Assembly: GCA_002238865.1 (NCBI GenBank)
Contig: MPNE01000003.1
Location: 124,001 to 188,000 of the forward strand
Source: Gemmatimonadetes bacterium bin94
GTDB lineage: Bacteria; Gemmatimonadota; Gemmatimonadetes; Longimicrobiales; Gaopeijiaceae
DNA length: 64,000 bases
Direction of reading: 5' to 3'
The position numbers and the translations under genes are program-made. Shown here in pieces: positions 59,459-63,146 of the stretch (its first letter is position 1; every line of letters begins with the position of its first letter). The notes under the pieces are model-generated. The model worked only from the letters and a program-made list of their open reading frames with translations, made no database searches and had not been told where the DNA came from.

Positions 59459-60025
59459 CTAGTGACCGCCATTCGAGGCAGGCTCTGTTTCGGTCGGGAC
59501 AGCCTTGTCGAATCCCAACTCCTGCGCAAGAGAACGGAGGTTCGGGCTGATACCGATGCTGAGGCGCGCGACGCCGTGAAAGCTGTCCACTGGCGACGCG
59601 GCTACCACGACGGCAGGTGTGGCAACTGCCTGCCTTCCACGAAAAACGATCAGCGAATCGAGGGGCAGGAGGAGATCATAGCGAATCCGCTCCCTCTTGA
59701 GGTATCCTCTCGTCCGGCTGGCTCCGCTTGTATCGGTGATCACCACCCAACGATAGTCGGGCGGTGCCGACCGTGCGAACTCGCGCAGTCGGCGCCCGAG
59801 CTGATCACACGTGAAGCAGTCGACACCTCTCAACAACGCGATAATGACAGGCGTCTCCGCACCCACAGCCTGTACGAGTTCTCCCCTGACGCTTGGAGCC
59901 AACATCCCGGATATGGAAATGGAGCCTTCTCCGACATCCCTTGAGTTGTCGCCAGAACCACATCCCAAGAGTGTCCCCACGGCAGTCACCACTGGAGGCA
60001 GGTGCAGGAAGCATCTCCAATTCAC
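59459..60025 (-). CDS. Thioredoxin-fold lipoprotein with CFTC motif
   Basis: 188 residues from a GTG that overlaps the stop of the propeller gene (GTGA). A signal ending in a lipobox (GTLLGC, Cys22) predicts a membrane-anchored periplasmic protein. Cys70-Cys73 (VDCFTC) follows a beta strand PVIIALLRG and precedes a helix, as in TlpA/redoxin folds. TPAVVV supplies the cis-Pro position. It could form, break or shuffle disulphides. It is the last gene of the cysteine-rich peptide cassette, whose product it may process. Codon use is less GC-biased than in genes to the left. Confidence 0.8.
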   Translation of the reverse strand: MNWRCFLHLPPVVTAVGTLLGCGSGDNSRDVGEGSISISGMLAPSVRGELVQAVGAETPVIIALLRGVDCFTCDQLGRRLREFARSAPPDYRWVVITDTSGASRTRGYLKRERIRYDLLLPLDSLIVFRGRQAVATPAVVVAASPVDSFHGVARLSIGISPNLRSLAQELGFDKAVPTETEPASNGGH

Positions 60026-61293
60026 CGTCCAATCCCCTCCGCTGCCCTCTCCGGTAGCGAAGTGAACTCCAATACGGAGATGGCGTAGGAGTCGGTGGCT
60101 TCTGCGTACCCCACGATTAGAGGGCGTCCCTGGAAATCCCGGCCCAACAGGGCACCCGAAGCTCCATGCACTCCAAGAAGCGCGAACCCCCCTTTGCCGT
60201 CCAGAGCCATTAGCCCGATGGCCCCACCTTCCACACGGTCCACCCCGACGTTGGCATCGTAACGGTGGAACTGGAGTGCCACCCTTCCGCTATCGAGCGC
60301 AAGCACCTCGAGGGGTCGAACATGACCATGAAAGACCCATGATCCGTCCGCCCGTTGCGGCCGACCATCGTTTCGCCTGAGCGTCTCCTTCACCGAAACC
60401 GGCATCAACTCGGTCGGGAGCTTTTCGCGAGCCTCGCGCTCGCCTTCGTAACTGAACGCGAACAGCGAATCGTCAACCGCTCCGTAGACGTATCCGCCTC
60501 TCGCATCGCCCTCTATCGATGTCCATTGTAGCAGGTAGGGGTCGCGCCCCAAATACCGTTCGCGGTCGAGCATCGCGGAAAGGCAACAGGACCCGCTAGG
60601 GCGGAGGAGTGCCAAGAGGTCCCGAAACACTCCGCTTTGGAGTGTTGCGATGGCAAGGAAGAGCGAATCGTCCACCGGACGGAGCAGCCAAGGACTCGTC
60701 GCAGGGGCCTTGGCGATCGTCGTAGCCCGCACGAAGTTGCCAGCGGCGTCGAACACCGACAATCTGTCCCGGCCGACATCGTACCCGAACAATGAATCGC
60801 GGAAGAACGTGGCAACCTTCAAGTTGTCGAACTCCCCAGGACCTTGGCCCACCCGACCTACGGTTCCCACACGATTTCCACGTCCATCGTAGAGCTTGAT
60901 GTCGTGGTCGGATCCGTCGGAGATCGCGAAAACCCCTTCGCTGGACTCTGATATCCAGTTGGGCACGGCCAAGCCCGGCTGGGCGTGATCGTCCGTCACG
61001 AAGAGGTGCGTTTCCGTAAACTCAACCGGTGCCAACGGGGGACCGCTACCGGGGATCCGGGCCGCATTCCGATCCCGTGCTTCCGCATCGCATCCACTCA
61101 CCATAACGCCGAGTGCGGCAAGGACGGCATATGGTCTGCCGACACGGTCCCTTCGTGAGCGGGAGCGGGGTCGCCCCCCCCGGCTTTCAGCGTCGAGCCG
61201 GGAGGGCTGCGGTGACTTCACCGGTGAGTAGGCGGGCGGAAAAGAACTCACGACACCGCGCCGTGTTCCGGCGGGGCTGGTTGGACCAAGCAT
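60022..61293 (-). CDS. 6-bladed beta-propeller lipoprotein
   Basis: Up to 423 residues; the true start is uncertain because the lipobox (AALGVMVSGC) falls near residue 68 of the longest frame. A start closer to it, not marked by a clear ribosome site, is likely. The mature part has the 6-bladed propeller pattern seen in BF3164-like lipoproteins: ISDGSDHDIKLYDGRGNRVGTVGRVGQGPGEF, FGYDVGRDRLSVFDAAGNFVRA, then weaker repeats, and a CC pair (SGSCCLSAM). It lies 7 bases after the cysteine-rich peptide gene and overlaps the thioredoxin-fold gene. Binding of the peptide is a reasonable inference. Confidence 0.78.
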   Translation of the reverse strand: MLGPTSPAGTRRGVVSSFPPAYSPVKSPQPSRLDAESRGGRPRSRSRRDRVGRPYAVLAALGVMVSGCDAEARDRNAARIPGSGPPLAPVEFTETHLFVTDDHAQPGLAVPNWISESSEGVFAISDGSDHDIKLYDGRGNRVGTVGRVGQGPGEFDNLKVATFFRDSLFGYDVGRDRLSVFDAAGNFVRATTIAKAPATSPWLLRPVDDSLFLAIATLQSGVFRDLLALLRPSGSCCLSAMLDRERYLGRDPYLLQWTSIEGDARGGYVYGAVDDSLFAFSYEGEREAREKLPTELMPVSVKETLRRNDGRPQRADGSWVFHGHVRPLEVLALDSGRVALQFHRYDANVGVDRVEGGAIGLMALDGKGGFALLGVHGASGALLGRDFQGRPLIVGYAEATDSYAISVLEFTSLPERAAEGIGR

Positions 61294-61300
61294 CGTGGTG

Positions 61301-61534
61301 TTATTTCTTCTTCACCACGATGTCACAGCACAGGAAGGGCCAGCCCAGACAGGTCTTCTTGCACTCGTTGCAGGAGTTGGGCGGATCCTCGCCCGGGGTC
61401 CAGTAGCACTGCCGATCGCCAGCCAACGCCTGATCAGGACCAGGCACCACGATGGTGGCGATCAGGAGCGCGGCGGCGATCAGAAACCGGCCAGGGCTCA
61501 GGATCGATTTCAAAGCTGCGGTTGGGTGCTTCAT
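61301..61534 (-). CDS. Exported six-cysteine small peptide
   Basis: 77 residues. GGGAGG lies 8 bases before the ATG, a strong ribosome site. A signal peptide (about 16-38, ending QALA) would release a 39-residue peptide with Cys43, Cys55, Cys58, Cys62, Cys69 and Cys70 (precursor numbering), three possible disulphides, and a basic VVKKK end. I do not recognise the family. Layout (small ALA-G-type cysteine peptide, propeller lipoprotein next door) resembles NVEALA peptides beside BF3164 lipoproteins in Bacteroidota. It is the first gene of a three-gene cassette. Confidence 0.75.
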   Translation of the reverse strand: MKHPTAALKSILSPGRFLIAAALLIATIVVPGPDQALAGDRQCYWTPGEDPPNSCNECKKTCLGWPFLCCDIVVKKK

Positions 61535-61573
61535 GTCGGTGTCCTCCCGTTGGTGGGGGTCATGTGTTTGTGG

Positions 61574-62918: not shown

Positions 62919-63146
62919 ATGACGAGTGTGACCGAGAGCAAGACGCGAGCGCCGGGGCGGTTTCTGCGGCTGCCGGAGGTGATTGCCCGCACGGGTCTGT
63001 CGCGGAGCACGATCTACTTGCGGCTGGATCAGGGCCGCTTTCCCTCGCCCGTCTCGCTGGGCGGACGCGCGGTGGGCTGGATCGAGTCGGAGATCGACGA
63101 GTGGATGCGCAACCGGATCGCGGAGAGCCGAAGTGACGCGGGATGA
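62919..63146 (+). CDS. AlpA-family DNA-binding regulator
   Basis: 75 residues with a MerR-like winged HTH: RFLRLPEVIARTGLSRSTIYLRLDQGRFPSPVSLGGRAVGWIESEIDEWM is the AlpA pattern. AlpA proteins regulate excision genes of integrated elements such as CP4-57. GGAG lies 11 bases before the ATG. It is convergent with the mob genes to the right and fits a mobile element. It likely binds nearby repeats, perhaps those at 62410-62466. Confidence 0.88.
   Translation: MTSVTESKTRAPGRFLRLPEVIARTGLSRSTIYLRLDQGRFPSPVSLGGRAVGWIESEIDEWMRNRIAESRSDAG

Follow-up and report, generated by a model that had tools for sequence, protein, structure and literature searches.

On the minus strand of the window, the 64,000-nucleotide stretch of DNA analysed here, three tightly packed genes run from position 61534 to 59459 and, as read from their open reading frames, encode in order a small exported peptide, a beta-propeller lipoprotein and a thioredoxin-fold (Trx) lipoprotein (Table 1). 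Only 7 bases separate the stop codon of the peptide gene from the start of the propeller frame, and the GTG start of the Trx gene overlaps the TGA stop of the propeller gene (GTGA). A preliminary description had reported these frames with their gap and overlap, a strong ribosome site on the peptide gene, a signal peptide followed by six cysteines in 39 mature residues, and a CxxC motif in the last protein; each of these features was recovered, with the cysteines at residues 43, 55, 58, 62, 69 and 70 (spacing 11-2-3-6-0). The minus-strand location of all three genes is an addition to that description.

Table 1 Features of the three-gene cassette, in positions of the window.
Feature	Position	Strand	Details
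Exported peptide gene	61301..61534	-	77 aa; signal residues 1-38 (QALA|G); 39 mature residues, GDRQCYWTPGEDPPNSCNECKKTCLGWPFLCCDIVVKKK, with six Cys
Mature peptide	61304..61420	-	C58, C62, C69 and C70 form the family-wide C-x3-C-x(4-10)-CC core
Ribosome binding site GGGAGGA	61542..61548	-	7 bases ahead of the peptide ATG; sister genome has CAGGAGAAG there
NHL-like beta-propeller lipoprotein	60022..61293	-	Lipobox cysteine Cys68 (VSGC); 67-residue leader if ATG 61293 is used
GC-rich stem-loop CCCTCCCGGCTC...GAAAGCCGGGGGGG	61174..61206	-	In the propeller-gene leader; kept in the sister genome
Thioredoxin-fold lipoprotein	59459..60025	-	GTG start; lipobox LLGC22; active-site motif C70-F-T-C73

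No ribosome site precedes the propeller ATG at 61293, from which the lipobox lies 67 residues in. This start is plausible though not certain, since the 13-base stretch around it (CCACGATGCTTGG) is identical in a sister genome of the same genus and the indels that separate the two genomes between the ATG and the lipobox are whole codons. A later start, which would leave a 145-base spacer after the peptide gene, was rejected, given that the candidate GTG does not lie in frame and that the ATG at 61293 is conserved. The stem-loop in the propeller leader is a possible attenuator or mRNA-processing signal, and it could allow the peptide and the propeller to be expressed at unequal levels. The cassette has a GC content of 61%, compared with about 68% in its surroundings, and a gene for an AlpA-type phage regulator lies 1.4 kb away (62919-63146); together, these two features suggest that the trio sits on an integrated island.

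The sister genome (G138, JAPPGI010000098.1) carries peptide, propeller and Trx in identical order, with identities to the window of 78-79%, 77% and 60%, respectively. Between the two genomes, dN/dS (Nei-Gojobori) was 0.38 for the signal, 0.13 for the propeller, 0.30 for Trx and 0.09 for the mature peptide, which is thus the most constrained segment of the cassette. Judged from this comparison, the window peptide is a real gene under strong purifying selection. Loss of the peptide frame, which the preliminary description had named as a result that would speak against it, was not what we found. Recognisable six-cysteine relatives also occur in two distant genomes, G086 (KQCWYTPPEPPNTCSECHHNCLGGEYICC) and G379 (QQCWYDPSRDTQYTCRWCGDPCQNGPTGEGPYCCC), in each of which the peptide adjoins its own propeller and Trx but is placed after the Trx gene.

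Given that propellers are very numerous in the window's own genome (49 matches), the peptide might in principle be a spurious small reading frame beside two common lipoprotein genes. A profile built from six Trx sequences matched 35 of 395 Gemmatimonadota genomes, and we read the neighbourhoods of these matches. A 32-sequence profile (A3) separated trio loci, which scored at least 57.9 bits, from ordinary thioredoxins, which scored at most 49.1 bits and of which the highest-scoring (L193) has a CPLC motif and belongs to Pfam Redoxin. With this profile, we recovered 38 Trx loci in 28 of the 395 genomes, spanning eight genera and four families. All 38 had a propeller and a peptide core of the form C-x(3-4)-C-x(4-10)-CC alongside, two of these cores being variants, and 36 had an intact exported peptide ORF nearby; in the remaining two, L125 and L130, the mature region is present with its signal frame broken. 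Exported ORFs bearing the motif within 2.5 kb of Trx numbered 51, every one of them on the Trx strand, while 150 kb of flank beyond 2.5 kb contained none; the motif was defined after some of the peptides had been seen, a choice that does not affect strand or position. Other propeller loci, covering 377 kb, contained a single motif peptide, at L047, and this locus too is a trio, its Trx being frame-shifted. Gene order varied, with the peptide first or last, yet the three genes stayed together.

Recurrence at 38 loci, the uniform strand of all 51 peptides and their absence from the 150 kb of flank amount to more than chance. Combined with the constraint on the mature peptide and the separate lineage of the linked propellers described below, they refute the explanation by chance neighbours, and these comparisons give good support to the three genes as a single recurring module. 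The search through other Gemmatimonadota that the preliminary description had proposed, with a count of trios and paralogues, yields one to three peptides at each of these loci, and the alternative it had raised, an adjacency unique to one genome, does not hold. The main locus keeps a constant position in most genomes of the host genus, flanked by genes identified by eye as those of a phosphomannomutase and a PIG-L deacetylase, and its copy in the window's own genome is L045. Integrase-like genes were noted by eye near L047 and L131.

We examined each of the three components in turn, beginning with the propeller, whose identity as an NHL-type protein is firm: its profile (A8) matched NHL domains in the PDB at E = 1e-39, and Foldseek returned NHL matches at 3e-8 on a model of moderate quality (pTM 0.60). 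The window propeller itself scored 10.7 bits against the six-bladed family PF17170 (DUF5128), below the cut-off of 22.9, while 9 of 22 linked propellers matched this family, the best at 5e-7. It did not match PF15869 (BF3164/TolB_like), to which only an unrelated locus (C4) of the same genome corresponds. About 49 NHL-like propellers were matched in this 4.4 Mb genome, mostly without a peptide or Trx, and they often stand in tandem (for example, L023, L025, L036, L041 and L044). A scan of contigs with the propeller alone returned relatives in G138 (77%) and in a Longimicrobiales MAG (G058, OX638356.1; 72%), the latter within a propeller array and with neither peptide nor Trx adjoining, which indicates that the propeller can persist alone. 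In a tree of 98 propellers whose deep branches are weak, those linked to a peptide and Trx required 3 label changes, compared with 29.8 when labels were shuffled, so the linked propellers largely form a separate lineage.

The peptides are held together by their cysteines. The four that correspond to C58, C62, C69 and C70 of the window are invariant across 40 aligned peptides, and among 55 peptides 46 contain exactly four cysteines and 3 an odd number. The cysteines are typically spaced as C-x3/4-C-x4-6-CC, and a 3-11-residue tail usually comes after them; the core is often preceded by a hydrophobic, strand-like stretch. Curated families gave no convincing match for the 40 peptides, only scattered single hits (E of at least 0.0026 in Pfam and at least 0.035 in NCBIfam). 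DUF6520 (PF20130) had no match over its cut-off in the 146 genomes of the host order.

Of the 55 peptides, 47 have a tryptophan close to the core, a feature that bears on whether the peptide could be the small subunit of a propeller-based enzyme or electron carrier, by analogy with methylamine dehydrogenase. The mau cluster brings together the same three kinds of part, namely a cysteine-rich light subunit (MauA), a propeller heavy subunit (MauB) and the thioredoxin MauD. Nevertheless, the 40 aligned peptides have no invariant tryptophan pair of the kind that forms the cofactor, neither maturation genes such as MauG and MauE nor a cytochrome partner were recognised in the trio loci, and one to three diverging versions would be rare for an enzyme subunit. 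We therefore regard a role of this kind as very improbable.

Where a locus encodes more than one peptide, up to the maximum of three, the copies are divergent, and at the main locus of the host genus the peptides diverge faster than Trx. Between L111 and L114, for instance, peptide identity is 61-83% compared with 89% for Trx, and for peptide 2 the C-part has a dN/dS of up to about 0.9. Such tandem, rapidly diverging peptides, together with the patchy spread of the trio and the atypical GC content of the window's trio and the AlpA-type regulator near it, would be expected of a bacteriocin-like antagonist that is supplied with its own folding enzyme and that the propeller sequesters for self-protection. 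Mobile toxin cassettes, however, do not keep the fixed place that the locus has in most of the host genus, and the window peptide is under strong purifying selection. In addition, the peptides carry a Sec signal only, no secretion or immunity gene was seen, and no relatives were found on plasmids or viral contigs. On balance, we consider an antagonist of this type unlikely.

For the third component, a thioredoxin fold is supported by profile comparisons. Matches of A3 to the PDB were led by ResA and YkuV (E 0.003-0.009), and its matches to ordinary thioredoxins reached E values down to 1e-12 per genome (the CPLC thioredoxin L193); a two-sequence AlphaFold model had a pLDDT of 41.5 and no fold match, and is too poor for use. 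The protein is distantly related in sequence to the TlpA/ResA oxidoreductases, with which it shares the CxxC thioredoxin fold, but it falls far below their Pfam cut-offs and differs from them as a lipoprotein with CLGC, CLTC or CFTC motifs that stands beside a peptide and a propeller in all 38 loci. Both CxxC cysteines are present in 28 of 32 aligned sequences, including that of the window, and the second is invariant. The first has been lost in L075, L132, L134, L135 and L139, all from one genus, which means that not all loci can depend on ordinary dithiol oxidation.

This loss, which speaks against plain oxidase work, could be accommodated if the peptide were a carrier of copper or another thiophilic metal that is charged or reduced by a Sco/TlpA-like Trx and docked on the propeller. 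TlpA/Sco-type lipoproteins with a CxxC thioredoxin fold function in copper delivery, and a CC pair can bind metal. Against this, no histidine or methionine is conserved among the 40 aligned peptides, and no metal transporter or oxidase gene was recognised by eye in the neighbourhoods of the trio, which leaves metal handling an improbable explanation.

The account that we favour, and hold to be probable, is that the trio is a cell-envelope cassette dedicated to folding and holding a peptide, in which Trx makes or edits disulfides and the propeller holds the product. Its first steps, linkage, export and constraint, are established at the level of sequence: a small peptide with a Sec-type signal for export carries the conserved four-cysteine core, extended to six cysteines in the window, and its gene stands together with those for a thioredoxin-fold protein and for an NHL-type propeller lipoprotein that belongs to a single specialised lineage. 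We infer redox action by Trx and peptide binding by the propeller as the steps that follow. The membrane-anchored Trx would form or edit the disulfides of the peptide, two from C-x3-C-x(4-10)-CC and three in the window version, and the propeller, like NHL propellers that bind other proteins, would capture the folded peptide and retain it inside or on the envelope. A single pair of propeller and Trx would serve one to three different peptides. Because the cysteines are retained as the rest of the peptide sequence diverges, it is probably the variable parts that determine what each peptide recognises, and the peptide may act as a signal, an antagonist or a structural subunit. The preliminary description had suggested the same division of labour between Trx and propeller, likening the trio to a possible signalling or toxin/receptor module.

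Among known systems, the nearest pairing of the two partner folds is NHLRC2, a human protein with bacterial homologues, whose thioredoxin-like domain packs against the cup of a six-bladed NHL propeller and has its cysteine motif (CCINC) beside that cup (PMC6107167). NHLRC2 is a single fused protein without a peptide gene, whereas the cassette consists of separate lipoproteins and an exported cysteine-containing peptide, and seven bacterial NHLRC2 homologues had no conserved neighbours (PMC6107167). With its peptide, the trio provides a concrete candidate client for the pairing of propeller and thioredoxin known from NHLRC2.

In layout, the nearest known relatives are the NVEALA/BF3164 pairs of Bacteroidota, where a small exported peptide lies beside a propeller lipoprotein and many paralogues occur. 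The preliminary description had limited this resemblance to layout, which stands for the peptide: at E ≤ 1, none of the matches obtained with the 40 peptides was to NVEALA (PF14055), and this family was found in 0 of the 146 genomes of the host order. For the propeller that limit was too strict, given the related six-bladed PF17170 in 9 of 22 linked propellers. The cassette further differs from these pairs in its dedicated Trx.

We found no description of such a trio in the openly accessible papers searched. The peptides supply a signature by which a family of disulfide peptides exported by bacteria, absent from all libraries searched, can be recognised from sequence; the family is tied to two partner proteins with which it can be co-expressed and tested. 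The trio also suggests what some of the very many NHL-like propeller lipoproteins of Gemmatimonadota may do.

A comparable combination was observed with a different oxidoreductase. At three loci of the window's own genome (L028, L056 and L059), an exported cysteine-rich peptide and a propeller are accompanied by a true DsbA (PF13462/PF01323). These peptides are unrelated to those of the trio, their propellers come from other branches, and searches with their families gave only weak matches in the host order and showed them to be rare elsewhere. The peptide at L028 (GCYEIWSICNDGRDCCSRICERLVDGSYC) has the knottin-like cysteine spacing of an inhibitor knot. The DsbA-type loci thus appear to represent the same combination assembled separately, and repeated pairing of a cysteine peptide, a propeller and a thiol oxidoreductase from unrelated parts supports a working link among the three. 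As a broader and more tentative proposal, which we think somewhat less likely to be right than wrong, the trios may belong to an undescribed, phylum-wide peptide-ligand/receptor system of Gram-negative envelopes, arisen more than once (in thioredoxin and DsbA types), in which each locus would have its own disulfide peptides together with a Trx that folds them and a propeller that holds or senses them, both private to the locus.

Cysteine-rich exported peptides beside propellers were located at L028:3922-4116, L056:6971-7339, L059:6343-6618 and L057:7555-7776, three of these four loci being those with DsbA. Tandem exported cysteine-rich peptides occur at L151:1477-1707 (G272, host order), with a weak match to DUF6520 (20.4 bits against a cut-off of 25.4). 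Another small exported peptide, encoded at L040:459-677, contains three CC pairs (ASCCRGDGPEAYCCHKCCWW); its gene lies near a sigma-factor-like gene and has no propeller immediately adjoining, and a relative lies near L121 (7192-7389) in another genome.
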